This document shows positions 42,263 to 56,702 of a stretch of 64,000 bases of DNA, one piece after another. The stretch lies in NCBI RefSeq assembly GCF_026241755.1, contig NZ_JAPJDA010000004.1, positions 107,143 to 171,142 on the forward strand. Reading direction: 5' to 3'. A program made the position numbers and the translations under genes. Under the pieces are notes generated by a model. The model had not been told where the DNA came from and did not search any database. It was given only the letters and a program-made list of their open reading frames with translations. How positions within the stretch are numbered: position 1 is the first letter of the stretch; the number at the start of each line of letters is the position of its first letter. This stretch comes from Salinimicrobium profundisediminis (GTDB lineage: Bacteria; Bacteroidota; Bacteroidia; Flavobacteriales; Flavobacteriaceae).

Positions 42263-43953
<1,691 letters not shown>

Positions 43954-43971
43954 TCTATTAATGTTAAAATA

Positions 43972-44133
43972 TTAATCTAAAATATCCAGAATCATTCTGG
44001 CTAAGGTGATTGCATCATCTATGATAGCTTCACCTTCTTCGTCGGTCACCTCCTTGTACTTTTCAATTTTACGTAGTTCAGATAGTGACAACCTGTGATG
44101 TTCACAGACATCATCGTTATGTGGTCTAGACAT
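43972..44133 (-). CDS. 53-residue helical protein upstream of the integrase
   Basis: Small ORF starting MSRPHNDDVCEHHRLSLSEL and ending LARMILDILD, 18 nt upstream of the integrase on the same strand. It looks like a single amphipathic helix pair rich in Asp, Glu, His and Leu. Its position suggests a helper of the recombinase, for example a directionality factor, or a translational leader, but nothing in the sequence proves this. I do not recognise a family. Confidence 0.55.
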   Translation of the reverse strand: MSRPHNDDVCEHHRLSLSELRKIEKYKEVTDEEGEAIIDDAITLARMILDILD

Positions 44134-44240
44134 CCCGATTCTCTCCGCTTTGGTCTCTCCATTTACTTTTTACGAGGCGGAGGGAGAAATCCCTTCTAAG
44201 AGGGTTATTCCTTTATAGTCTACTCATAAGGTTAAGACTT

Positions 44241-44279
44241 ATCGACCTGGGTCGATGTCGATAATCATAGATGGCCATC
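44241..44279. promoter_or_regulatory. nested palindrome cluster upstream of the integrase genes
   Basis: Within the 358-bp gene-free stretch 44134-44491: ATCGACC-TG-GGTCGAT (44241-44256, 7-bp arms around a 2-base centre), overlapping a wider TATCGAC/GTCGATA pair (44240-44246 and 44257-44263), then the 10-bp palindrome GATGGCCATC (44270-44279). This looks like a protein-binding site for a dimeric regulator or recombinase. The rest of the stretch is AT-rich with nothing else recognisable except the terminator at 44439-44466. Confidence 0.5.
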
Positions 44280-44438
44280 GAGATTAACTGAAGACAAAAT
44301 TACCACACATTAAGGAAGGAGACAAGGATAAAAATGAAATATTATTAAAAAATATCCTTGTTGAATGAATTAACTTGAATAATAATGTTTTTAAAATGAA
44401 TTATAGTCATTTATTTATGACTTGTATTCTTAGGGATT

Positions 44439-44466
44439 AAAAAAGCCTCAACGTAGATGGTGAGGC
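44439..44466 (-). terminator. terminator of the HUH-like gene
   Basis: GCCTCA (44445-44450) pairs with TGAGGC (44461-44466); on the minus strand it is followed by a T-tract (44439-44444). Confidence 0.65.
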
Positions 44467-44491
44467 TGTTCTGATTGGTTTCATTCAGGAG

Positions 44492-45106
44492 TTAAAACAA
44501 ATAATCCCAGGAAGTTCCTTTCAATCCTTCTTTAGTAATATAGAATAGACCTGCTTCTATTGGGGTGTATTCTTCCAGGGAAACTCTATCCCACTTAAAA
44601 TGCTCTTCAATAAATTGGTTAACGTGGTTAACCTTTTGGGGACTACAATTGATAACAAAATGATTATGATTCCCACCACGAATATCATAGGATTCTGTGG
44701 TAAAGAATAACTTCAAATCTGAATCCTCCAGGTCACTCTTTAATTGGTTATACAACTTAACCATTTTGTTATAGCAGGTATCCTTAGTACAATCTGTTCG
44801 GTAGGATACAGTACCGAAGATTACCCAGTCCATGTACCATAACTTGGCGGCTAAGGAATTCTTATCTCTTGCCAGGTAAATTATCTTTTGAAGGTTTTGT
44901 ATTTTCTCATCCTTTTCCTGGTCTGACTTTATCATTAAACCCAGGTCAAAGTATTTTAAATGAGTTTCAGGTATATCTTTCCTTTGCTTCTTACCCACCA
45001 CCTTCCTCTCATTACCGAGTTCTGGATACTCGTTGTAAAATCTATAGAGCTTACTGAGACTAATCTTTGTCAGTTCTATAAATTCTTCTTTTCTGTAGTA
45101 TTTCAT
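44492..45106 (-). CDS. putative HUH-type Rep/relaxase-like nuclease with N-terminal HTH
   Basis: 204-aa protein. Residues 1-50 look like a helix-turn-helix segment (YYRKEEFIELTKISLSKLYRF). The remainder has the order of motifs of Rep-type HUH endonucleases: a strand FGTVSY near 95, the metal-binding H-x-H (His147, His149 in GNHNHFVIN) and a Tyr-x-x-Lys active site (Tyr189, Lys192 in FYITKEG) 40 residues later. Such enzymes nick one strand and join its 5' end to Tyr for rolling-circle replication or conjugative transfer. It sits next to a GC-rich structured block. The assignment comes only from motif order and spacing. Confidence 0.6.
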   Translation of the reverse strand: MKYYRKEEFIELTKISLSKLYRFYNEYPELGNERKVVGKKQRKDIPETHLKYFDLGLMIKSDQEKDEKIQNLQKIIYLARDKNSLAAKLWYMDWVIFGTVSYRTDCTKDTCYNKMVKLYNQLKSDLEDSDLKLFFTTESYDIRGGNHNHFVINCSPQKVNHVNQFIEEHFKWDRVSLEEYTPIEAGLFYITKEGLKGTSWDYLF

Positions 45107-45671
45107 TTCTTTTACTTCTTTTATTAGTTATATATAAAGGAGATATAAAGGGGTTTTCCCCTTAATCTCTTCCTATAAATATGTCAGAAATGCTATTTGT
45201 AAAGGGTGCAATAGATTTTTTATAAATTATTTTTACTGTGTCAATTTTGACATAGGTATACATAATTATCACCAAATTCCTAGTGGAACATTGAAGGCTA
45301 GACCACCATAGTAATACGGGGGTGGGTCCGTTACCAGGGAGGACGGGGGATACACCAAACGCTTCCCAGGTCCCCCTGTGTTTTGAGAGGGAAGCTTTGG
45401 AGGCCTTATCATTTTTTAAGGATTTATCTCCTTTAACATTTGCTCCAAAGCTCTGGTAACTCTGAGCTAATAGCAACCCAGAAGTCCAAATGTCAGTTAT
45501 GATATCTCACTTGATACTGTCTTATATGGCTCTAAAAGACCCTATAAAATGGTGATAATCGCCATTATGTGGTTATTAAATGCTCCAGGGTTTTACGGAA
45601 AACCACAGTTGGGAAGAGCTATACTTTTCCTATATTTAACAAATTATTATTAAATATCGAACCATTAATAT
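45107..45671. other. 565-bp gene-free region with GC-rich structured block; candidate origin
   Basis: Between the HUH-like gene and hsdM. The interior (about 45300-45400) is clearly richer in G and C than its surroundings and contains paired arms CCAAACGCTTCCC / GGGAAGCTTTGG (45355-45367 with 45389-45400, one bulge) plus AGCTC/GAGCT (45449-45468). A minus-strand open frame spans 45162-45476 (104 codons) but has atypical composition and I do not count it as a gene. A nick/origin site for the neighbouring nuclease is a reasonable hypothesis. Confidence 0.45.
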
Positions 45672-47246
45672 ATGGCCAAGAAAACTAAGGCTAAGAAACA
45701 GAAGAGTATAGAAGAATCCCTTTGGGATAGTGCTAATGCCCTAAGGGGAACCGTTGAATCTTCTGAATATAAACACGTGGTGTTGGGACTTATCTTCTTG
45801 AAGTTCGCCAGCGATAAATTTGAGAACCGAAAGCAGGAACTCATTGAGGAGGGTAAAGAGAAGTTTGTGGAAATGACGGAATTCTACACTATGAAGAACG
45901 TATTCTATCTACCCTCAGAATCCCGCTGGAGTTATATTAAAAATAATAGTAAACAGGATGATATAGCCATTAAGATTGACACTGCCTTATTTACCATAGA
46001 AAAGAACAACCCATCCCTAAAAGGTGCGCTACCTGATAACTATTTCTCCCGTCTAAATATGGATGTGAGTAAGCTAAGCTCCCTAATTGATACCATTAAT
46101 AATATCGATACTCAAAAAGACAATTCTGAAGATATTGTTGGGCGGGTTTATGAATATTTCCTGGCAAAGTTTGCTTTAAAGGAAGGTAAAGGTAAAGGGG
46201 AATTTTATTCCCCAAAGAGTATTGTTAACCTCATTACTGAGATGATTGAGCCATACCAAGGGAAGATATATGACCCTGCAGCAGGAAGTGGTGGTATGTT
46301 CGTACAATCCATAAAGTTTATTGAAGCTCATCACGGGGATAAGAAGGAGGTGAGTATCTATGGTCAGGAATATACTTCAACCACCTATAAGCTGGCTAAG
46401 ATGAACCTGGCAATTCGTGGTATCTCTGCTAATTTGGGTGATGTCCCTGCCGATACGTTTGCCCGTGACCAGCATCCAGACCTTAAGGCTGACTTCATTA
46501 TGGCTAACCCACCCTTTAATCAAAAGAAGTGGCGTGGCGAAGATGAGTTAATTGATGACCCACGATGGGCTGGTTATGAAGTGCCACCTGTAAGTAATGC
46601 TAACTACGCCTGGATTCTTAATATGGTTTCTAAGCTATCACATAATGGTGTAGCTGGCTTTATTTTGGCAAATGGTGCTATATCTGGTGGGGGTGAAGAG
46701 TATAAGATTAGAAAGAAATTAATTGAAAACTGCTTGGTGGAGGCAATTTTGATTTTACCAATGAAAATGTTTTATACCACCGACATTAGTGTCACCCTAT
46801 GGATATTAAATAACAATAAAACCAAACGGACGGTAGACAAAGGCGATACGCAAAGACATTACCGTAACCGTAGGGATGAAATTCTCTTTATGGACCTTCG
46901 CAAACGGGGAGTGCCATTTGAAAAGAAGTACATTCAATTCTCTAATGATGATATTAAAGATATTACTGATACCTACCATTCTTGGCAGGAAACCCGCTGC
47001 GAAATTGAATATGAAGATGTGCCTGAATTCTGTTATTCTGCTCATATTGAAGAGGTAAGAAAAAAGGATTATTCCCTGGTGCCCAGCAAATATATCGAGT
47101 TCATCAATAGAGATGAGAATATTGATTTTGAGGAGAAAATGATTGAACTTAAAACTGAATTTTCGGATTTGCTATCTCAAGAACAAGAATCAAAAAAGCA
47201 ATTATTAAAGGTTTTTAAAGAACTTGGTTATGAAATCGAGTTATAA
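45672..47246 (+). CDS. hsdM: Type I restriction-modification system, methyltransferase subunit HsdM
   Basis: Adenine-N6 DNA methyltransferase of a Type I system. The SAM-binding motif I is DPAAGSGG (201-208) and the catalytic motif IV is NPPF (279-282). The N-terminal helical domain starts KKQKSIEESLWDSANALRGTVESSEYK, which is the standard HsdM_N opening. 524 aa is typical. First gene of a plus-strand run hsdM-hsdS-hsdR and three more genes. Confidence 0.96.
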   Translation: MAKKTKAKKQKSIEESLWDSANALRGTVESSEYKHVVLGLIFLKFASDKFENRKQELIEEGKEKFVEMTEFYTMKNVFYLPSESRWSYIKNNSKQDDIAIKIDTALFTIEKNNPSLKGALPDNYFSRLNMDVSKLSSLIDTINNIDTQKDNSEDIVGRVYEYFLAKFALKEGKGKGEFYSPKSIVNLITEMIEPYQGKIYDPAAGSGGMFVQSIKFIEAHHGDKKEVSIYGQEYTSTTYKLAKMNLAIRGISANLGDVPADTFARDQHPDLKADFIMANPPFNQKKWRGEDELIDDPRWAGYEVPPVSNANYAWILNMVSKLSHNGVAGFILANGAISGGGEEYKIRKKLIENCLVEAILILPMKMFYTTDISVTLWILNNNKTKRTVDKGDTQRHYRNRRDEILFMDLRKRGVPFEKKYIQFSNDDIKDITDTYHSWQETRCEIEYEDVPEFCYSAHIEEVRKKDYSLVPSKYIEFINRDENIDFEEKMIELKTEFSDLLSQEQESKKQLLKVFKELGYEIEL

Positions 47247-48501
47247 AACATTAGGGGAATATATCCGTCAGGTTAAAGTAAGAAACAGTGATTTAAGTAT
47301 TACCGAACCTATGGGTATAAATATTTCCAAGTTCTTTATGCCCTCCGTAGCTAATACTAAAGGTACTGACCTTTCCAAATATAGAGTGGTGAAAAATGGA
47401 CAATTTGCCTACAATCCGATGCACGTTGGTAGGGATGAAGTACTTCCCATAGCTTTACTGAAAGGGAAGACTAAAATTATTGTTTCTCCCGCTTATGTGG
47501 TATTTGAAATTATTGATAAAAAGGCCTTACTGTCTGAATATCTGATGATGTGGTTTAGACGAAAGGATTTTGACCGCAATGCTTGGTTTACCACGGACAA
47601 TAGTGTTCGTGGAGGGTTTAGTTGGGAATCCCTTTGCGAGTTGAAATTACCCATCCCATCCCCCTCAATACAGCAGGAAATCGTTGATGAATATAACACG
47701 GTGGTGAATCGTATTAAATTAAATGAAGAGCTAAACACAAAACTTGAAGAAACAGCCCAAACCCTATACAATTATTGGTTTGTAGATTTTGAGTTTCCCA
47801 TCTCTAGGGAATATGCTCAATCTATTGGTAAACCAGAATTAGAAGGAAAACCTTATAAATCTAGTGGTGGGGAAATGGTTTTTAGTGAGGAGTTAGACAA
47901 GGAAATTCCGTCTAAGTGGGAGGCAGAAGAATTCCTTCAATTATTCAAGTTGAGCGGTGGTGGTACACCAAGTACTAAAAACGAAAACTATTGGAATGGT
48001 GAAATTCCCTTTTTTACCCCTAAGGATGTTGGTAACTACACGTATAGTTTTAAAACTTTGAAAAATATTTCTGAATTGGGATTTAGAAAAAGTAGTACTA
48101 GAATCTATCCAAAAAACACCACTTTTATTACTGCACGTGGTACAGTTGGGGCAATATCTATTGCGGGATGTAAAATGGCAATGAATCAAAGTTGTTATGC
48201 AGTGACTGGAAATTATCCCTTTTTCACGCATCAAACGTCAATAGATTGCGTGAACCAGATTAAAAAAGAAGTAGTAGGTGCAGTTTTTAATGCATTAGTT
48301 ACAAAAGACTTTAATGGTAAGTTTGAAGTTAAACCGTCGGAGGAGGTACTTGACAAATTTGAAAATATTGCCAGGCCATTGTATGCCTGGATGTTATCTA
48401 TAGCACTAGAGAATGCGAAAAATGAACTTTTGAAAGATTTGCTGCTTGCTCAAATATCTTCATTAACATTGGAAATTCAAGAGCAGACTTTAACTCCTTA
48501 A
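47230..48501 (+). CDS. hsdS: Type I restriction-modification system, specificity subunit HsdS
   Basis: DNA recognition subunit with two target-recognition domains and conserved helices between them (YNTVVNRIKLNEELNTKLEETAQTLYNYWFVDFEFP). The second TRD opens with SKWEAEEFLQLFKLSGGGTPS-type text. The ATG at 47230 overlaps the end of hsdM by 17 nt; an in-frame TTG at 47224 is less likely. 423 aa. Recognised sequence cannot be predicted. Confidence 0.93.
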   Translation: MKSSYKTLGEYIRQVKVRNSDLSITEPMGINISKFFMPSVANTKGTDLSKYRVVKNGQFAYNPMHVGRDEVLPIALLKGKTKIIVSPAYVVFEIIDKKALLSEYLMMWFRRKDFDRNAWFTTDNSVRGGFSWESLCELKLPIPSPSIQQEIVDEYNTVVNRIKLNEELNTKLEETAQTLYNYWFVDFEFPISREYAQSIGKPELEGKPYKSSGGEMVFSEELDKEIPSKWEAEEFLQLFKLSGGGTPSTKNENYWNGEIPFFTPKDVGNYTYSFKTLKNISELGFRKSSTRIYPKNTTFITARGTVGAISIAGCKMAMNQSCYAVTGNYPFFTHQTSIDCVNQIKKEVVGAVFNALVTKDFNGKFEVKPSEEVLDKFENIARPLYAWMLSIALENAKNELLKDLLLAQISSLTLEIQEQTLTP

Positions 48502-48505
48502 CTTA

Positions 48506-51500
48506 ATGAAATTCACTGAAGAAAAGCTGGAACAAGCAATTATAACTCATCTTGAAGAAGAAATGTATACCTATGTTTCAGGGAAAACTATACTTCGGGA
48601 AGAATCCGAGGTGTTGTTAAAGGGTGACTTAAGTGAGTTTCTTTTCAGTCAGTATAGAGATTATGGTATTACCCAGAATGAGGTAGAGTCGGTTATTCGT
48701 AAGTTGGAGACTTACCCAGCTTCAGATTTATATGAATCCAACAAGGCTATTTCCAGGTTAATCAGTGATGGGTTTTTACTTAAACGGGAGGACCGTAATA
48801 AGAAAGACCTTTATATTCAACTTATAGATTATTCCCGCAGCGATAAAAACATTTATAAGATAGTTAATCAGCTAGAGATTGTTGGCTATCATAAACGAAT
48901 CCCCGATGGGATTATTTACGTTAATGGTATTCCGTTGGTGGTTTTTGAATTTAAAACTGCTATCCAGGAAAATACCACCGTATACAATGCGTTCACTCAG
49001 TTAACGATTCGGTATCGTAGAGATATCCCAGAGTTATTTAAGTATAACGCTTTTTGTATTATCAGTGATGGTGTAAATACCCGTGCGGGTTCCTTCTTTG
49101 CTGGTTATGAATACTTCTATTCCTGGAGGAAGATTGAACCAGAAGACAAACGGGAAGTAGATGGTATTAATTCCCTCTACACAATGGTAAAGGGGATGCT
49201 CAACCGTGACCGTCTTAGGGATGTGGTTCATAACTTTATTTACTTACCCGACTCTTCAAAGAAAGATGAAAAAATAGTATGTAGATACCCACAATATTAC
49301 GCTGCCCGTAAGTTATTTGATAAAATCAAAGAGCACCAGAAACCAGAAGGTGATGGTAAGGGTGGAACCTATTTCGGTGCCACTGGTTGTGGTAAAAGCT
49401 TTACGATGTTATTTCTTACTAGGTTATTGATGAAGTCGGTTTATTTCTCCAGCCCGACCATTATCCTAATTACCGACCGTACCGATTTAGATGACCAGCT
49501 ATCGGAGCAGTTCACCAGTGCTAAACTATATGTAGGGGATAATGAGATTAAGAGTGTCGAAAGCAGGGACAAATTAAAGGAACTGCTAAAAGGCAGAAAT
49601 AGTGGCGGGGTATTCCTTACTACCATTCACAAGTTTACGGAAGATACTGACTTACTTACCGAACGTACGAACGTTATTTGTATAAGTGATGAAGCTCACC
49701 GTTCCCAGATTAACCTGGACCAAAAGATTAAGATTACCAAAGATGGGGTGAAAAAAACCTATGGTTTCGCCAAATATCTTCACGACTCCTTACCCAATGC
49801 AACCTATGTTGGTTTTACTGGAACTCCAGTTGATGCTACTTTAGATGTGTTCGGTGATGTAGTAGACTCTTACACAATGACCGAAAGTGAAAAGGATGGT
49901 ATCACCAAGAAGATAATTTATGAAGGGAGAGCAGCTAAAGTTATACTCGATAACCGTAAACTGGAGGAAATTGAGGAATACTATGCTCGTGTAGCTGAAG
50001 ATGGTGCAAATGAATATCAGGTAGAGGAAAGTAAGAAACAAATGGCCAATATGAATGCCATTTTAGGGGACCCTCACCGCCTTAAAGCCATCGCTGAAGA
50101 CTTTGTCTATCACTATGAGAAAAGAGTCGCTGAAGGAGCTACAGTGAAGGGAAAAGCGATGTTTGTAGCTTCAAGTAGACCAATAGCGTATCACCTATAT
50201 AAAGAGATAACAGAGTTAAGACCCAATTGGGCTGAAGAAAGAAAGCATGAACCAGGTGCCGAACTTACCGATAAAGATAAACGGGAGCTAAAACCAACGA
50301 AGATGATTGAGATGGTTATGACCCGTGGTAAAGATGACCATCAGGAAATGTATGAGGCCCTTGGGACCAAAGAAGACCGTAAGGAACTCGACAGGCAGTT
50401 TAAGAATGAAAAATCCAACTTCAAAATAGCCATTGTGGTCGATATGTGGCTAACTGGGTTTGATGTTCCTTTCCTGGATTCTATTTACATTGATAAGCCG
50501 CTTCAAAAGCATAATCTCATTCAAACAATTTCTAGGGTCAACCGAAATTATAAGGGTAAAGAAAAAGGTTTGGTGGTTGATTACATCGGTATTAAAAAAC
50601 AAATGAACCTGGCTCTGAAGCAATATTCAGCCATAGACCGTGATAAGTTTGAAGACATTGACCAAAGCATAATAGTTGTGAAGGATAACCTCAACTTGTT
50701 ATCCAAAATCTTCTATAGGTTTGATTCCAGGGGTTACTTTATGGGTACTTCTGCTGAGCAACTGGAGTGTCTTAACCAGGCAGTGGAATTTGTTCAACTT
50801 ACTCAAGACCTGGAAAGACGGTTTATTAATATCGTAAAACGGTTGAAGGCAGCTTATGATATTTGTTGTGCCAGTGATGAATTTGGCACCAAAGAACGTG
50901 ATGAAATACATTTCTATCTTGCTATTAAATCTATAGTCCATAAGCTTACAAGAGCCGATGCACCTGATACCGCTCAAATGAATACAAAAGTTCGGGAGAT
51001 GATTCAGGAAGCCCTGGATAGTGATGGGGTAGAAGAGATATACGCAATGGGTGAAAAGGACCAGGTAAATATTTTTGATGAAGATTACCTGGCAAAAGTG
51101 GAGAAGATTAAACTCCCTAACACCAGGATAAAATTACTTCAGAAGTTACTCAAGAAGGCTATTGATGATTTTGGTAAGGTGAACAAAGCCCAGGGAGTCG
51201 ATTTCTCAAACAAGTTCAAAACATTGGTGGACCGATATAATGAACGCAAAGAAGATGATGTACTAAGAAGTGAAGTCCTGGATGAATTTACTGATGAAAT
51301 TTTAGCTCTATATAATGCCCTGAGGGAGGAGCAGCAATCCTACAAAGGTTTGGATATAGATTTCGAGGAAAAAGCCTTCTACGATATCCTAAAATCCCTT
51401 GCGCACAAATATGACTTCAAGTATCCTGAAGCTAAATTAATAACTCTCTCTAAAGCGGTCAAAGATGTTGTGGATGACCTCACCAAGTACACCGACTGGA

Positions 51501-51646
51501 GCAAACGGGCCGATATAAAAGCAGAACTGAAAGTTGACCTTATTATGTTACTTGCCGAACATGATTACCCGCCCGTCGACCGTGACGAAGTGTACCAGGA
51601 AATCTTTGAGCAAGCGGAGAATTTTAAGAAACAAAGAAGTTTTTAA
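48506..51646 (+). CDS. hsdR: Type I restriction-modification system, restriction subunit HsdR
   Basis: ATP-driven translocase and endonuclease. The PD-(D/E)xK nuclease has Asp134 and EFK at 148-150. The SF2 motor has Walker A GATGCGKS from residue 291, a DEAH box from residue 395 (CISDEAHRSQ), GFTGTPV, and the motif VI-like 'QTISRVNRNYKGKEKG'. 1046 aa matches the family. Starts 4 nt after hsdS. Intact active sites suggest a working enzyme. Confidence 0.95.
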   Translation: MKFTEEKLEQAIITHLEEEMYTYVSGKTILREESEVLLKGDLSEFLFSQYRDYGITQNEVESVIRKLETYPASDLYESNKAISRLISDGFLLKREDRNKKDLYIQLIDYSRSDKNIYKIVNQLEIVGYHKRIPDGIIYVNGIPLVVFEFKTAIQENTTVYNAFTQLTIRYRRDIPELFKYNAFCIISDGVNTRAGSFFAGYEYFYSWRKIEPEDKREVDGINSLYTMVKGMLNRDRLRDVVHNFIYLPDSSKKDEKIVCRYPQYYAARKLFDKIKEHQKPEGDGKGGTYFGATGCGKSFTMLFLTRLLMKSVYFSSPTIILITDRTDLDDQLSEQFTSAKLYVGDNEIKSVESRDKLKELLKGRNSGGVFLTTIHKFTEDTDLLTERTNVICISDEAHRSQINLDQKIKITKDGVKKTYGFAKYLHDSLPNATYVGFTGTPVDATLDVFGDVVDSYTMTESEKDGITKKIIYEGRAAKVILDNRKLEEIEEYYARVAEDGANEYQVEESKKQMANMNAILGDPHRLKAIAEDFVYHYEKRVAEGATVKGKAMFVASSRPIAYHLYKEITELRPNWAEERKHEPGAELTDKDKRELKPTKMIEMVMTRGKDDHQEMYEALGTKEDRKELDRQFKNEKSNFKIAIVVDMWLTGFDVPFLDSIYIDKPLQKHNLIQTISRVNRNYKGKEKGLVVDYIGIKKQMNLALKQYSAIDRDKFEDIDQSIIVVKDNLNLLSKIFYRFDSRGYFMGTSAEQLECLNQAVEFVQLTQDLERRFINIVKRLKAAYDICCASDEFGTKERDEIHFYLAIKSIVHKLTRADAPDTAQMNTKVREMIQEALDSDGVEEIYAMGEKDQVNIFDEDYLAKVEKIKLPNTRIKLLQKLLKKAIDDFGKVNKAQGVDFSNKFKTLVDRYNERKEDDVLRSEVLDEFTDEILALYNALREEQQSYKGLDIDFEEKAFYDILKSLAHKYDFKYPEAKLITLSKAVKDVVDDLTKYTDWSKRADIKAELKVDLIMLLAEHDYPPVDRDEVYQEIFEQAENFKKQRSF

Positions 51647-51647
51647 A

Positions 51648-52403
51648 ATGAAAACAGAGAAGGCTAGCATCACCGATTTGGAAATTTTTAATTCCCGCTG
51701 GGGATATGAGCAAGGAGTTAAATTCTGTTTGGATAACGGGAGAGAAGATTATTTCCAAATTGAAAAGATATTTGAGGCTTCTGGAATAGCACCTAATGAG
51801 TTAGAAGTGCTCATAGGAAGTGAAGTGATTATTTCAATTGATGATAAGAATAATATTAATGTGGATAAATATCTCTTGGCTGTAAGCGATTTAATTCAGT
51901 TTAGAAAAGAGAATAAATCCTTAATGAAGGAAATTCATAAAGTTAGGTATGAGGATAGAAATGGTTCCACAAGAGTGATTCTGGAGACCTCGGAAAGAAG
52001 TTTTGATATTGCGATAGCCCCGCTCACTATTCAAAGTTGTCTCGGAAAAGATGAGTTTTTGGCTTTAGAAGGTAGCTTTATTAATCCACAATTTTTTGGA
52101 GTGGGAGATAAAATAGGAAAGTATACCTGTAAATATAATGAGACCACCATTAAAGAATTGAACTTAAGATATGGTATTGGTTTTCAGGAAAAGGTTAACC
52201 GAATAAGAAAGACTATTGCTCATACCCGTGAGCAGGAGGAGAATATTGAGGGGAATTCCAAAAGTAATTATGACGACTTTAACCATACCGAAAGTTATGA
52301 TAAATATGGGGGGCCTGGAGATGGTTATGGTGGGAATTTATCAGATGATTTCATTGATGATGCTTTAGGGGGAGAACCCGATGCTTACTGGAATATTGAT
52401 TAA
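51648..52403 (+). CDS. unrecognised protein directly following hsdR, with acidic/Gly tail
   Basis: 251-aa soluble protein starting 1 nt after the hsdR stop, so very likely translated from the same mRNA. No family recognised. The centre looks alpha/beta (KVRYEDRNGSTRVILETS...). The last 45 residues are of different composition, rich in Asp, Gly, Tyr and Ser, and end SDDFIDDALGGEPDAYWNID, which resembles a linear motif or disordered tail. The internal ATG at 51648 was chosen; the frame is open further upstream inside hsdR, but that part duplicates hsdR coding DNA. Confidence 0.7.
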   Translation: MKTEKASITDLEIFNSRWGYEQGVKFCLDNGREDYFQIEKIFEASGIAPNELEVLIGSEVIISIDDKNNINVDKYLLAVSDLIQFRKENKSLMKEIHKVRYEDRNGSTRVILETSERSFDIAIAPLTIQSCLGKDEFLALEGSFINPQFFGVGDKIGKYTCKYNETTIKELNLRYGIGFQEKVNRIRKTIAHTREQEENIEGNSKSNYDDFNHTESYDKYGGPGDGYGGNLSDDFIDDALGGEPDAYWNID

Positions 52404-52436
52404 GGTGAAAGCATTAGTAAACTTAATGACATTGTT

Positions 52437-52973
52437 ATGACTAAAGAAATGTTTTCTGAAGAAGACAAAATCGAAATAAGAAATCTATATAACCAAAGAG
52501 CTATCATAAGAAACCAGTATGATGTTTTTGAAAAATTGAAGAATGAATTTCAAAAATTTAAAGCAGACTATAAAAAGCTCTATGAAAGTAAAGTGAAAAT
52601 TGAAACCAGTCAAAAATTACTAAAGAAGAGAATGGAAGCTGAGATGTTTGAAAGTAAGGCTCTATTAACATCAATGGTGAAGACCTGGAATGATGATATG
52701 GAGTTTCATTTTCAGAAATACAATTATGAGAAACTAAATGACTTCCTCTTAATTCAACCCATATATAGAAAAATAGGGTTGAATCGGGTAACACCAGAGT
52801 TTGCCAGGGAAACAAAAAAAGAGGCCAAGTCCCAGCAAATTGTTTTTTTACAAGGAGATATGCGTTATGGCTATGGTAGTGTGCAGACCACGAATTATTA
52901 TCCCGTTCAATGGTTGAAAGATAATTACTATAACATTTATGAACGCACAGACAAAAAGGTCTGGGGTTTTTAA
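52437..52973 (+). CDS. unrecognised coiled-coil protein in the restriction operon
   Basis: 178-aa protein. Residues about 10-85 are Lys/Glu-rich and would form a long coiled coil (RNQYDVFEKLKNEFQKFKADYKKL). The remainder is mixed, with Tyr-rich text (RYGYGSVQTTNYYPVQW, KDNYYNIYERTDKKVWGF). It lies 33 nt after the preceding gene and 56 nt before the RelA/SpoT-domain gene. No function known. Confidence 0.65.
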   Translation: MTKEMFSEEDKIEIRNLYNQRAIIRNQYDVFEKLKNEFQKFKADYKKLYESKVKIETSQKLLKKRMEAEMFESKALLTSMVKTWNDDMEFHFQKYNYEKLNDFLLIQPIYRKIGLNRVTPEFARETKKEAKSQQIVFLQGDMRYGYGSVQTTNYYPVQWLKDNYYNIYERTDKKVWGF

Positions 52974-53029
52974 AGGATTAAGGTTAGCCCCAATTGGGAA
53001 GTCTAGGAATTAAAAGCGATTCAATAATT

Positions 53030-54100
53030 GTGAAAAAAAGAAAGTATTCAAATAATGAAGTAAAAGAAGCAGGGAAGATTTTAGTTTCACCACATTCTTA
53101 TAGTAATCAAGAAATTCTTTATGCTCGAAATATTCTTACCTATTGGCGGACTATTCATGCGGGTCCTATTAATACTTTTCAAGCCACTTTAAGAGATAAA
53201 ATTTATAGACTTGGTTATAAAAATGTGGTTATTGCCCAGAGACTGAAACGTGCAGTTTCAATCGTTTCGAAGCTCAATAGGTTTTCAAATATGAAGCTTT
53301 CAACTATGCAGGATATCGCTGGTTTAAGAGCAATCGTTAATAATGTAAATCAAGTAAGAAAGGTAGAAAAGAGTTATCGTGAAAGCACTTTTACCCATAT
53401 CTTAAAGGATGAAAAAGATTATATTAAAGAACCAGCATATTCGGGTTATAGAGGGATACACCTTATATATCAATATGTCAATCCTAATAAACCTGAATCG
53501 GATGGGCTAAGAATAGAAGTTCAAATAAGGTCCAAATTACAACATACCTGGGCTACTGCTGTTGAAACAATGGGTACCTTTTTGGATTATTCACTTAAGT
53601 CCAGTCAAGGTCCCGTTAATTGGTTAGAATACTTTTCTTTAGTTAGTGCAGGGTTTGCCATACTGGAGGATTGCCCTCTCCCCAGTCAACATGTTGGAAG
53701 GTCTGAAAAAGATATCTTCAAAGATATAGTGGATGAAAGTAATAAGTTAAGAGTTGAAGAAAAATTAAGGGGTTTTTCAGTGGCTGCAGACCATATTTTT
53801 GCTAAAAGCACTAATAGTAAGTATAATTTAATAACTCTAAATTTGGAAAAAAGGGTGGTTAATGTAAAAAGTTATTCTGCTAGATATTTGGAGCAAGCTA
53901 ATACTGATTATACAAAAATTGAAAGCGAAATTTCAGATGGTGCACCTCTGCAATGTGTTTTAGTTTCAACAAATAAAATTGATTCTCTTCGTAAAGCATA
54001 TCCAAGTTATTTTTTAGATACGCAGGAATTTCTGAAAAAGTTAAATCTTATACATGCGAAGCTAAGGAGACTTGAGTCATCCAAAGTTGTTCAAAGTTAG
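53030..54100 (+). CDS. RelA/SpoT-domain protein (alarmone synthetase-like), stand-alone
   Basis: 356-aa protein with a single RelA/SpoT synthetase domain and no HD hydrolase, TGS or ACT domain. Synthetase landmarks are 'MQDIAGLRAIV' (Asp95), 'SGYRGIHLIYQY' and 'IEVQIRSKLQHTWA' (Glu163 of the ExQ motif), so the acidic catalytic residues are kept. A C-terminal helical region of about 170 residues follows. Many such proteins are found in defence islands, where they make (p)ppNpp or modify tRNA when phage is sensed. The start is taken as GTG 53030 (MKKRKYSNNEV after initiation); TTG at 52994 is an alternative adding 12 residues. Confidence 0.82.
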   Translation: MKKRKYSNNEVKEAGKILVSPHSYSNQEILYARNILTYWRTIHAGPINTFQATLRDKIYRLGYKNVVIAQRLKRAVSIVSKLNRFSNMKLSTMQDIAGLRAIVNNVNQVRKVEKSYRESTFTHILKDEKDYIKEPAYSGYRGIHLIYQYVNPNKPESDGLRIEVQIRSKLQHTWATAVETMGTFLDYSLKSSQGPVNWLEYFSLVSAGFAILEDCPLPSQHVGRSEKDIFKDIVDESNKLRVEEKLRGFSVAADHIFAKSTNSKYNLITLNLEKRVVNVKSYSARYLEQANTDYTKIESEISDGAPLQCVLVSTNKIDSLRKAYPSYFLDTQEFLKKLNLIHAKLRRLESSKVVQS

Positions 54101-54186
54101 CTTATACCCATTTACCGATATGGTTGGATTAGTCTATTATGACAGTTTTGCTGGCCTTATTTCTGTTCAAAAATAACCACCCTAAA

Positions 54187-54218
54187 TTTGTACATTATAA
54201 ATAGATGACCTATATTTG
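54187..54218 (+). promoter_or_regulatory. promoter of the resolvase gene
   Basis: TTTG (54187-54190), 20-bp spacer, TATATTTG (54211-54218), ending 17 nt before the resolvase ATG. The TGACCTATATTTG context (54206-54218) recurs at 55297-55309. Confidence 0.7.
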
Positions 54219-54235
54219 GTGGAAATCTTTTCACC

Positions 54236-54841
54236 ATGAAAAAAGCCCGTTACAATCGAATTTCAAGTCCTAACCAAAATTTAGAGCGTCAACTTAAAAG
54301 AAATCATCCAGATGAGATGATTTTTAGTGATGTTGTTAGCGGGTCCGTTGCTTTCAACGAAAGAGAAAAGGGCCAGGAACTGATGAACGCTATTGAGAAT
54401 GGAACTGTCGATTTTGTTTCAGTGGCTGCCGTGGACCGCCTGGGCCGAAATCTCTATGATGTATTAACCACCTTGGAGTATTTTACCACTAATGATGTGG
54501 TCCTTAGGGTAGACAACTTAGGTATTGAATCGATGGTTGACGGTAAGCCAAACCAGGTATTCAAACTAATCGTATCGGTTCTCGGTAACGTTGCTGAAAT
54601 GGAACGTGCTAATTTACGTGAACGTCAGCTTGAAGGTATTGCAATTGCAAAGGCTAAAGGAGTTTATAAGGGACGTGAAAAAGGTACTTGTATGAATGAA
54701 ACTGAGTTCCTGGAAAAATATAAACACGTGGTAAAAGAGACAAAGAATCACCCAGACCTTTCAATTCGTAAATTGGCTAAGTTAACTAGTGTTAGTGTCG
54801 GTACAGTGCAAAGGGTGAAAAAAATAATGGTGGAATCATAG
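54236..54841 (+). CDS. small serine recombinase (resolvase/invertase family)
   Basis: 201-aa protein with catalytic Ser10 in NRISSPNQN, the domain phrase 'AAVDRLGRNLYDVL' and a C-terminal helix-turn-helix (SIRKLAKLTSVSVGTVQRVKKI). This is the layout of Tn3-type resolvases and DNA invertases. No inverted segment or transposase is obvious nearby, so its role could be multimer resolution of an excised or replicating form of the element. It has its own promoter and ends 19 nt from a convergent gene. Confidence 0.88.
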   Translation: MKKARYNRISSPNQNLERQLKRNHPDEMIFSDVVSGSVAFNEREKGQELMNAIENGTVDFVSVAAVDRLGRNLYDVLTTLEYFTTNDVVLRVDNLGIESMVDGKPNQVFKLIVSVLGNVAEMERANLRERQLEGIAIAKAKGVYKGREKGTCMNETEFLEKYKHVVKETKNHPDLSIRKLAKLTSVSVGTVQRVKKIMVES

Positions 54842-54860
54842 TCCACCATTATTAAATTTA

Positions 54861-55205
54861 TTAGGCAGCATCTTTTGAAGTTTTACTGTCGATTATATCG
54901 ACCATAGCTGAGACTGTGGTTAAATGAATTGTTTCCATTTGGTCTTTCAGATGTACGGGTTTTTCCAGTTCACTCATCTTTATAACCATTGCATGTAGTA
55001 AATCTGCTACATCCTTCAGGGATGACCATTCCTCACAAGCTATTAAGATTGGCCAATGCCAAACATCATTATTTCTAAATTTACGAATAAGGAGGATATC
55101 TTCTTGAAGTATCACTTTAGTTGGTCCATTTATCGGACGCCCAATTATTCCTATTTCTTTAATCGACCAGATGCCGAATGGTTCTAAGTTGTTTATATCA
55201 ATCAT
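54861..55205 (-). CDS. unrecognised 114-aa protein, convergent with the resolvase
   Basis: Soluble protein beginning MIDINNLEPFGIWSIKEIG and ending DIIDSKTSKDAA. It has a mixed beta start and a helical second half (SLKDVADLLHAMVIKMSELEK). No signal peptide or motif recognised. Composition is like the other element genes. I judge it real because of its length, standard ATG and clean separation from neighbours, but the function is unknown. Confidence 0.55.
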   Translation of the reverse strand: MIDINNLEPFGIWSIKEIGIIGRPINGPTKVILQEDILLIRKFRNNDVWHWPILIACEEWSSLKDVADLLHAMVIKMSELEKPVHLKDQMETIHLTTVSAMVDIIDSKTSKDAA

Positions 55206-55296
55206 ATTTTATTTTTTGCAAAATTACCATTAATGAACGATATAAACAATGAATTTGGTGTAATAATATACAAATTAATGAGAATTCACTAATAAG

Positions 55297-55309
55297 TGAC
55301 CTATATTTG
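55297..55309 (+). promoter_or_regulatory. second copy of TGACCTATATTTG
   Basis: Same 13-base string as at 54206-54218 but without a clear TTTG upstream. The stretch 55206-55495 (290 bp) has no gene; this element is a candidate promoter or operator for a long leader in front of the 55496 gene. Confidence 0.4.
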
Positions 55310-55465
55310 TGAGTTTTATTCTTACAAGTCTGGCTGCAAAGAGGAATAAAAGGGAAGGCTATTATAAAATCCTTAACTAAATAATGGTGGTAAATTGAAA
55401 TATTCTATTTAAATTTCAAATCCCAATCAGCAGTTCCCTACCTGCTTATGGTGCAAAAATTGTTA

Positions 55466-55473
55466 TACATTTG
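55466..55473 (+). promoter_or_regulatory. candidate -7 box of the small acidic gene and protease
   Basis: TACATTTG fits TAnnTTTG, 22 nt before the ATG at 55496; the -33 element is weak. Confidence 0.4.
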
Positions 55474-55495
55474 CAGCTTCAAAAAAAATCGTAAA

Positions 55496-55687
55496 ATGAG
55501 TGAGACTAAAAATAAATCGGATTTATTTCTTAATGATTATGAGGAAATAATGAAAACCTCGGAAAGGACAACTATTGTTGAAGAACAATGGTCTGAGGAG
55601 GGTGATTATTTTCAAAAGTTTTCCTTGTATGAAGACTATACTCCTGTAAAAACCTCTGGAAGTACTATATTAAATACACAGATTTAG
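55496..55687 (+). CDS. small acidic protein preceding the protease
   Basis: 63-aa protein, rich in Glu, Asp, Ser and Thr, starting MSETKNKSDLFLND and ending SGSTILNTQI. Its stop is 1 nt before the ATG of the SDH-type protease, so the pair is translationally coupled. A small acidic partner suggests an adaptor, inhibitor or substrate of the protease. No family recognised. Confidence 0.55.
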   Translation: MSETKNKSDLFLNDYEEIMKTSERTTIVEEQWSEEGDYFQKFSLYEDYTPVKTSGSTILNTQI

Positions 55688-55688
55688 T

Positions 55689-56603
55689 ATGCCCAATTGG
55701 AATGAGGTAATAGCCGAAATTCACCAAACACGGCAACTTCACCCAGACCATAATCCATTAGATTTAGTCCGTAGAAAGTACCTTAAACAGGTATCTGAGA
55801 TAACGGGTCGTAATACCATAGCTTATTATTCAGGTTGGTTGCAAAAACCTACAGCACGTGATACCGCAGTTAATGATAAGGACAAATCTGGTCTGATGTT
55901 AACCATTCATAGGCTGGATAAGAGTAAAGGTCTAGATTTAATACTGCACACTCCTGGTGGTGATATTGCCGCTACCGAGTCCTTAGTTGATTACCTATAC
56001 TCCATGTTTGGTAAAAACATCAGAGTAATAGTTCCTCAAATTTCTATGTCGGCTGGAACTATGATTGCGCTTTCTTCTAGCGAGATTATTATGGGGAAAC
56101 ATTCTAATTTAGGACCTATTGACCCTCAGATGGGTGGACTTGCATGCCAGGCAGTTATTAACGAATTTAAACAGGCCAAGGAAGATATTAGAAAAAACCC
56201 ACATGCTGCCGCACTGTGGCAAGTAATAATCAGTAAATATCATCCAACCTTTTTAGGAGCTTGTCAACAAGCCATTGAATGGTCTGAAAAGATGGTATCA
56301 AAATGGCTGGAAGAAAATATGTGCGCTGACGACACCTCTATAGTTGAAAATATTCTTAAGACCTTTGCCGACCACAAGAAGCAAAAATCACATGCTCGAC
56401 ATATATCCAAGAGAGAATGTGAAGAAATAGGTCTTAAAATAGGCTCCTTAGAGGATAATCAGGACCTTCAGGATGCAGTATTGACCACTCACCACGCATT
56501 TATGCATACTTTTTCACATACCGCTTCGGTCAAAATTATTGAAAACCATAATGGTGTTGCGTATGTAGAAAATTCTGTCCCTCAGCCGCCGCAACCACAA
56601 TAA
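55689..56603 (+). CDS. SDH/SppA-like ClpP-fold serine protease (serine dehydrogenase proteinase family)
   Basis: 304-aa protein with a ClpP/crotonase fold. 'LILHTPGGDIAATES' near 84-98 forms the oxyanion hole and 'ISMSAGTMIALSSS' carries nucleophile Ser121; a partner Lys/His cannot be fixed but the following 'GPIDPQMGG' is a family phrase. The C-terminal third is helical and ends in a Pro/Gln-rich tail (QPPQPQ). No signal peptide, so it acts in the cytosol. Related SDH-type proteases occur in bacterial defence neighbourhoods. It is the last gene in the element before attR. Confidence 0.8.
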   Translation: MPNWNEVIAEIHQTRQLHPDHNPLDLVRRKYLKQVSEITGRNTIAYYSGWLQKPTARDTAVNDKDKSGLMLTIHRLDKSKGLDLILHTPGGDIAATESLVDYLYSMFGKNIRVIVPQISMSAGTMIALSSSEIIMGKHSNLGPIDPQMGGLACQAVINEFKQAKEDIRKNPHAAALWQVIISKYHPTFLGACQQAIEWSEKMVSKWLEENMCADDTSIVENILKTFADHKKQKSHARHISKRECEEIGLKIGSLEDNQDLQDAVLTTHHAFMHTFSHTASVKIIENHNGVAYVENSVPQPPQPQ

Positions 56604-56690
56604 AAATTTTGGTACGACACTAGTGTATTGTTTCGTGTAACCCAGCTACTGCACTTAAATCTTGCATGAATTGATTCGATATTCCAATTT

Positions 56691-56702
56691 TTCCCGCTAC
56701 TA
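56691..56702. repeat. right attachment core (attR)
   Basis: TTCCCGCTACTA, identical to 42327-42338. Upstream bases here (CGATATTCCAATTT) diverge from the tRNA, as expected of the element's own end. Confidence 0.7.

Follow-up and report, generated by a model that had tools for sequence, protein, structure and literature searches.

Few restriction-modification (RM) systems are known to be coupled with a suicide enzyme, the examples being PrrC and DarTG2, the latter of which ADP-ribosylates DNA. In EcoprrI, a type IC RM operon carries PrrC, an anticodon nuclease of tRNA-Lys (PMC3874165), and in enteropathogenic E. coli the DarTG2 toxin-antitoxin system is embedded in a type I RM locus, the RptR-RMS-DarTG2 island (PMC12255303). 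CapRel-SJ46 is a tRNA modifier (PMC9712102) that senses phage proteins unaided; its ATP is stacked by R79 and R116, its G-loop tyrosine Y155 is required for protection, and the YXXY motif (Y352/Y355) of its pseudo-zinc-finger keeps the active site closed as long as no phage protein is bound (PMC9712102, PMC11578894). Here we analyze a 64,000-nt stretch of the Salinimicrobium profundisediminis genome (Flavobacteriaceae; contig NZ_JAPJDA010000004.1, positions 107,143 to 171,142; hereafter the window, whose own coordinates are used throughout), in which a type I RM operon on an island at tRNA-Met is followed by two further genes, denoted genes 4 and 5, and by a gene of the CapRel family. We assign a probability of roughly 0.4 to the reading that this CapRel gene likely arrests translation if restriction fails and that it is likely one of several interchangeable effectors.

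The window gene resembles CapRel-SJ46 and CapRel-Ebc in whole-length homology, catalytic residues and the YXXY self-inhibition motif; unlike them, it stands last in an RM operon after two extra genes, and most CapRel-like loci examined have no adjoining RM genes. The row shares with EcoprrI the plan of a type I operon encoding a putative tRNA-damaging suicide enzyme (PMC3874165), but the toxin is unrelated, two extra genes are present, and no PrrC-type match was found for genes 4 to 6 in three libraries (Pfam, PADLOC, NCBIfam). With RptR-RMS-DarTG2 it has in common a toxin-antitoxin system within a type I RM locus, whereas the available text of PMC12255303 mentions no protein with a C-terminal tail like that of gene 4. 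Among the matches listed in a search of open-access literature text, there was no report of CapRel within a type I operon. Toxins in type I operons are thus already known (PrrC, DarTG2) and the operon described here is a variant; the tail of gene 4 may be more.

Family assignment of the last gene

The initial annotation described the last gene as a stand-alone RelA/SpoT-domain gene resembling an alarmone synthetase. The RelA/SpoT domain (PF04607) is indeed present, but the description was incomplete, as a C-terminal antitoxin-like domain comes after it. The gene matches the PADLOC candidate family PDC-S33 at 6e-116 and has 6241 homologous proteins at E ≤ 0.001 (of 7997 candidates scored). A profile built from 26 sequences, that of the window among them, matched over its full length the PDB entries 7ztb and 9erv (2.5e-58, hmmsearch), which, from their mention in the literature, we take to be chains of CapRel-SJ46; the other solved structures matched by the gene (YjbM, YwaC, RelA) align to the synthetase part. 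Each of the two codes occurs once, in one of two CapRel papers (PMC9712102, PMC11578894).

R71, R100 and Y140 of the window protein (356-aa numbering) align with R79, R116 and Y155 of CapRel-SJ46, the two ATP-stacking arginines and the G-loop tyrosine of the toxSYNTH domain, and Y324-P-S-Y327 sits in the sequence alignment at Y352/Y355, the YXXY motif of the antitoxin domain. The aligned R, R, Y and YPSY are invariant in the 26 sequences with the exception of the first Y of YPSY, which is kept in at least 90%. By family, as judged from sequence, the last gene is a CapRel-type fused toxin-antitoxin and not an alarmone synthetase. As the CapRel-SJ46 residues align in the window gene, it has, at the sequence level, the features of a toxin that inhibits itself and modifies tRNA. 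A brake, one of two roles that the initial annotation had suggested for the middle genes, would accordingly be carried by the CapRel-type gene itself. Assignment as an alarmone synthetase was tried and rejected: the NCBIfam GTP diphosphokinase model NF053588, whose curated cut-off of 320 bits stands here for small alarmone synthetases of the YjbM/YwaC type, gives 55.9 bits, and the full-length match is to CapRel instead.

A sister island in Gillisia with a different last gene

A related island at the same tRNA-Met, which surfaced through the tail-motif scan described below, is found on a contig of a Gillisia metagenome-assembled genome (MAG; L057). Identity to the window is 88% for hsdM, 44% for hsdS, 86% for hsdR, 43% for gene 4, 65% for gene 5 and 78% for the resolvase; the large serine recombinase at the equivalent place is 65% identical, and a 207-aa protein, 41% identical to the 204-aa protein of the window, weakly matches Rep ORF2/G2P (8e-6, just under cut-off). 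The gap between hsdR and gene 4 is 10 nt, compared with 1 nt in the window. In place of CapRel, between gene 5 and the resolvase, there is a 416-aa protein with two hydrophobic stretches (near 281 and 317), whose similarity to CapRel is not significant and which has no confident family (best PADLOC match DruC, E 4.5e-4).

DNA similarity between the islands stops at 52956, where 17 nt of gene 5 are still to come, and is back at 54087, for the last 14 nt of the CapRel gene. Within the row, hsdM through resolvase, a single gene has been exchanged, and downstream of the resolvase the gene content of the islands differs. The der gene of the Gillisia host is 76% identical to that of the window, versus 88% for the same-genus genome G622, so the two are not near copies. 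The different last gene of the sister row is the strongest result for reading this position as a probable slot that takes interchangeable anti-phage effectors; it comes from two islands, those of the window and of Gillisia. Of this row Gillisia has lost or never had CapRel alone, with hsdMSR, both middle genes and the resolvase all present; therefore genes 4 and 5 travel with the hsd genes and the last gene is exchangeable. The tie of the middle genes to hsd that the initial annotation proposed thus holds in a second island, where they again stand directly behind hsdR.

In both islands a small serine recombinase lies directly behind the exchanged gene and might drive the exchange. After the Gillisia resolvase come a 197-aa and a 476-aa protein with no Pfam match above cut-off (L099:11062-13078), and no counterpart of the SDH/ClpP-like protease of the window was noticed among the Gillisia open reading frames (ORFs).

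Linkage in other genomes

hsdR relatives occur in 35 of 397 family genomes, CapRel matches at 1e-40 in 2/397, and PDC-S33 matches at 1e-30 in 4 of 395 phylum genomes, the window's genome included in each count. Among 30 hsdR loci fetched, genes 4 and 5 or CapRel lie in the flanks of about 1.5 kb solely at the window locus; two of the 29 other loci end at hsdR, and the 26 other hsdR relatives with about 1.5 kb readable downstream (57-72% identity) lack gene 4 or 5 there. A second linkage was found in the genome G057, where a 446-aa CapRel relative (32% over 209 residues; PDC-S33 1.6e-55) lies between hsdS and hsdR of an operon of the same RM family as the window's (hsdM 77%, hsdR 65%), accompanied by an AriA/OLD-like ATPase and a PD-(D/E)XK gene. 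In the type I RM operon at L109:1610-13362, the interval from hsdS to hsdR holds a CapRel-like gene, an AriA/OLD-like ATPase, a 334-aa unknown, DUF6998 and a PD-(D/E)XK protein (PDC-S26).

Other loci weigh against a tight association. CapRel relatives are RM-linked in 2 of 5 genome loci (the window's own, G057, G383, G026 and G618), and the CapRel-like loci of G383, G026 and G618 contain no hsd gene in 14-18 kb. CapRel matches were obtained in 100 plasmid records; at none of the eight loci examined among the 25 matches listed was there an annotated hsd gene within 6 kb or a tblastn match to the Hsd proteins of the window. The 8 kb of L081, a locus with a distant relative of gene 4, likewise contain no hsd gene. 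CapRel relatives are mostly stand-alone, and therefore a strict coupling between restriction and CapRel is weakened: CapRel does occur linked to RM, though rarely, and is in itself a system that stands on its own. The initial annotation had named unlinked occurrence of the last three genes in most relatives as one finding that would speak against it. The last gene does behave in this way, being mostly RM-free and replaced in Gillisia, and genes 4 and 5 do not, as both lie directly behind hsdR in Gillisia, where alone a further close locus could be read.

Layout of the row and the island

The six genes hsdM, hsdS, hsdR, gene 4, gene 5 and the RelA/SpoT-domain gene all lie on the + strand, and the ORF coordinates (Table 1) confirm the order and the gaps given in the initial annotation: 1 nt between hsdR and gene 4, 33 nt between genes 4 and 5, and 56 nt before the CapRel gene. 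HsdM, HsdS and HsdR, with their domains, form one operon-like row of a type I RM system, although hsdM scores below the cut-off of the TIGR00497 hsdM equivalog (171.7 vs 242.75). The start of hsdS is a TTG at 47224, with an alternative ATG at 47230, and that of the CapRel gene a GTG at 53030, with a TTG upstream at 52994 that would give 368 aa. The row had been described as free of terminators, which holds apart from a weak stem of five pairs and a T run at 52948-52963, at the end of gene 5; the scan for such stems found 18 sites versus 8.4 expected in shuffles, some of them within hsdS and hsdR. No TANNTTTG box, the Bacteroidota -7 consensus, was found on the + strand of 51071-53793, in a scan that is insensitive since none was found in the 1.6 kb before hsdM either.

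The island spans 42339-56702, about 14.4 kb, as defined by a 12-bp direct repeat and by the uninterrupted (empty) site present in the same-genus genome G770. No hsdR relative was found at E ≤ 1e-150 in three same-genus genomes searched.

Table 1. Coordinates of the island features in the window.
Feature	Position	Strand	Remarks
tRNA-Met (CAT)	42263..42336	+	insertion site
attL	42327..42338		12-bp TTCCCGCTACTA, tRNA 3' end
Large serine recombinase, 552 aa	42295..43953	-	C-terminus overlaps tRNA-Met
204-aa protein	44492..45106	-	
hsdM, type I methylase	45672..47246	+	PF02384 5e-100, PF12161
hsdS, specificity subunit	47224..48501	+	PF01420, two matched stretches
hsdR, restriction subunit	48506..51646	+	REase_I 1258 bits
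Gene 4, 251 aa	51648..52403	+	two predicted OB-like domains and disordered C-terminal tail
Gene 4 C-terminal tail module	52296..52403	+	YDKYGGPGDGYGGNLSDDFIDDALGGEPDAYWNID and stop; ends DAYWNID
Gene 5, 178 aa	52437..52973	+	predicted long helical hairpin and small C-terminal part (low-confidence model)
Stretch exchanged in Gillisia island	52957..54086	+	ends as drawn by blastn
CapRel-family fused toxSAS toxin-antitoxin, 356 aa	53030..54100	+	PADLOC PDC-S33; R71, R100, Y140, Y324-P-S-Y327
Small serine recombinase (resolvase), 201 aa	54236..54841	+	directly behind CapRel gene
Terminator-like stem-loop, 12 pairs	54823..54853	.	longest on row; overlaps end of small serine recombinase gene
SDH/ClpP-like serine protease	55689..56603	+	PF01972 9.6e-20; near right island end
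attR	56691..56702	.	second TTCCCGCTACTA copy

Genes 4 and 5 and the DAYWNID tail

Searches of Pfam, PADLOC and NCBIfam gave no match for gene 4 and nothing above threshold for gene 5, whose matches there are all sub-threshold. The model of gene 4 (pLDDT 76) predicts two OB-like domains at about residues 1-195, followed by a disordered tail. Its fold matches among PDB entries and viral models are weak and mixed, and include domains of DNA ligases, PrgE, HIN-200 and Teb1, presumably all OB folds. SSB-type proteins combine an OB fold with a disordered acidic tail, which in SSB has the tip DDIPF. The plan of gene 4 is similar (predicted OB-like fold, Gly-rich linker and acidic conserved C-terminal end), but gene 4 has two predicted OB-like domains and the end DAYWNID, and its tail is carried by many other folds.

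A search with gene 4 returned 14 proteins, gene 4 included, all of which end in [DE]AYWNID with the motif occurring once per protein. Eight match mainly via the tail: five cover residues 206-251 only and three begin at 136, 164 or 177. DAYWNID followed by a stop codon was found in 88 stretches in 84,980 genomes, where about 0.7 are expected (own arithmetic, equal base use); 77 of 80 among the matches listed are from Bacteroidota, judged by title, and the other three carry the titles of Lachnospiraceae, Pseudobutyrivibrio and Clostridiales MAGs. When the motif was searched without the stop in six tail genomes, all 7 sites were then followed by a stop codon. The genome of the window has one tail (up to 2 mismatches allowed), which is also the one exact tail in the 395-genome phylum sample. 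Two viral contigs contain DAYWNID-stop; the match of gene 4 in viral contigs is limited to the tail of one other protein, and gene 5 has no relatives there. A tblastn search of plasmid and phage records with one 44-aa tail gave no match at E 0.01. Neither DAYWNID nor YWNID was found across the texts of 5.39 million open-access papers, and the available part of PMC7159879 does not mention the tail.

Conservation extends upstream of the fixed seven residues, with I at -16 in 81/91, G at -10 in 86/91 and P at -8 in 82/91 distinct sequences. We also considered the tail as a DNA-level element, such as a recombination site; this is not supported, because codon choice is free at the conserved residues, with Gly -10 and Pro -8 each encoded by all four codons. 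Tail-bearing ORFs are as short as about 44 aa, which is the tail by itself, and as long as 976 aa; 8 of 93 tails have fewer than 40 codons since the last stop (one of them cut by the locus end) and may be broken genes or chance. In a domain scan of 55 tail proteins (the window's, 47 from loci and 7 gene-4 matches, with short and some cut ones omitted), WG repeats were found in 23, an ExoX-like domain in 6, a phosphoribosyltransferase domain in 4 and leucine-rich repeats in 2.

Neighbors of the tail genes were labeled by clustering with one scanned member each. Across 90 tail loci, a gene clustering with retron-type reverse transcriptases (RTs) is present in 22, a WYL gene in 22, both in 15 and a vWA-like gene in 14, the vWA match being under the Pfam cut-off (E 0.008) and a second vWA-like cluster (C21) being judged by eye; 45 loci have none of the sets counted. 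The RT is the next same-strand gene for 16 of 93 tails, in 13 of these at 211-348 nt downstream, and a vWA-like gene lies 1-43 nt downstream of 11 of 93. At six loci (L006, L018, L060, L066, L083, L100) a WYL regulator is followed by a tail protein, which either has WG repeats or is the tail alone, then by a gene-free stretch of about 300-350 nt and a retron-type RT; the one RT scanned is similar to RT-Protease_XI/RT-TIR_XII of PADLOC. This order suggests a family of retrons whose partner protein bears the tail, and no known RNA was found between tail gene and RT by Rfam at gathering scores in 10 loci. Free-standing tail peptides of 44-45 aa lie 10-43 nt upstream of vWA-like genes at eight loci (L007, L012, L017, L021, L033, L055, L062, L072), seven of which also hold a gene clustering with a TPR and retropepsin-like protease. 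A tail protein of Maribellus luteus (L016) is encoded ahead of GmrSD-like and HsdR genes, and an hsdM-like gene (26%) lies about 7 kb away on the same strand.

A bolder idea, which we consider rather unlikely, casts the DAYWNID tail as a short, disordered tag, used for docking at the C-terminus throughout the phylum, that would join interchangeable sensor domains of diverse Bacteroidota defence operons (retron-type RT with WYL, vWA-like, type I RM) to one common acceptor and would here link restriction to a swappable suicide effector.

Proposed mechanism and alternative explanations

The most likely layering would be restriction first and then translation arrest by a changeable effector. HsdRMS would cut unmodified phage DNA; gene 4 may bind DNA or DNA ends through its two predicted OB folds and pass a signal onward through its docking tail; gene 5 may bridge to the effector; and the CapRel effector, which its YXXY motif would hold closed, would then open up to pyrophosphorylate tRNA, by analogy with CapRel-SJ46 bound by a phage protein. 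The coupling between restriction and CapRel is inferred, and a role for genes 4 and 5 in sensing the outcome of restriction is suggested by three features: their position after hsdR, the OB folds predicted for gene 4 and its docking-type tail. Of the layered defence put forward in the initial annotation, a defence-type operon combining RM with a likely shut-down enzyme stands, while the enzyme is not an alarmone synthetase. Production of (p)ppGpp by a stand-alone alarmone synthetase, halting growth, is very improbable even with the RelA/SpoT domain PF04607 in its favor, given the full-length CapRel match including the antitoxin domain, the score far below the GTP diphosphokinase cut-off and the tRNA modification by CapRel-SJ46 (PMC9712102).

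The main rival, nearly as likely as the layered mechanism, is that the island simply gathers defence genes and that CapRel is an independent system parked behind the RM operon with no functional coupling. This would fit the mostly RM-free CapRel relatives, the clean replacement of the last gene in Gillisia, the unaided sensing of phage proteins by CapRel-SJ46 (PMC9712102, PMC11578894) and the variable place behind hsdR in the RM family, where 8 of 29 other hsdR loci have a same-strand ORF of at least 150 aa, unlike genes 4-6, starting within 100 nt. However, a swap of the last gene alone, in which genes 4 and 5 and the resolvase stay in place, goes beyond random accretion, and in G057 another CapRel-like gene sits inside the RM genes, between hsdS and hsdR. 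Genes 4 and 5 could instead serve the restriction enzyme itself as accessory regulators, for instance by limiting HsdR or by sensing its translocation along DNA, with the last gene unrelated to them; both genes stand directly behind hsdR in both islands and do not vary with the effector. We regard this as improbable: the hsdR family seems not to need them adjacent, because 26 relatives lack them there (elsewhere in those genomes they were not sought).

The rows of the two islands, with their different last genes, amount to a natural experiment that points out the exchangeable part and the genes that would need to act as connector; if this connector works, restriction could be wired to different kill switches. 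A common C-terminal tail on different proteins offers a testable handle on how Bacteroidota defence operons may share one partner.

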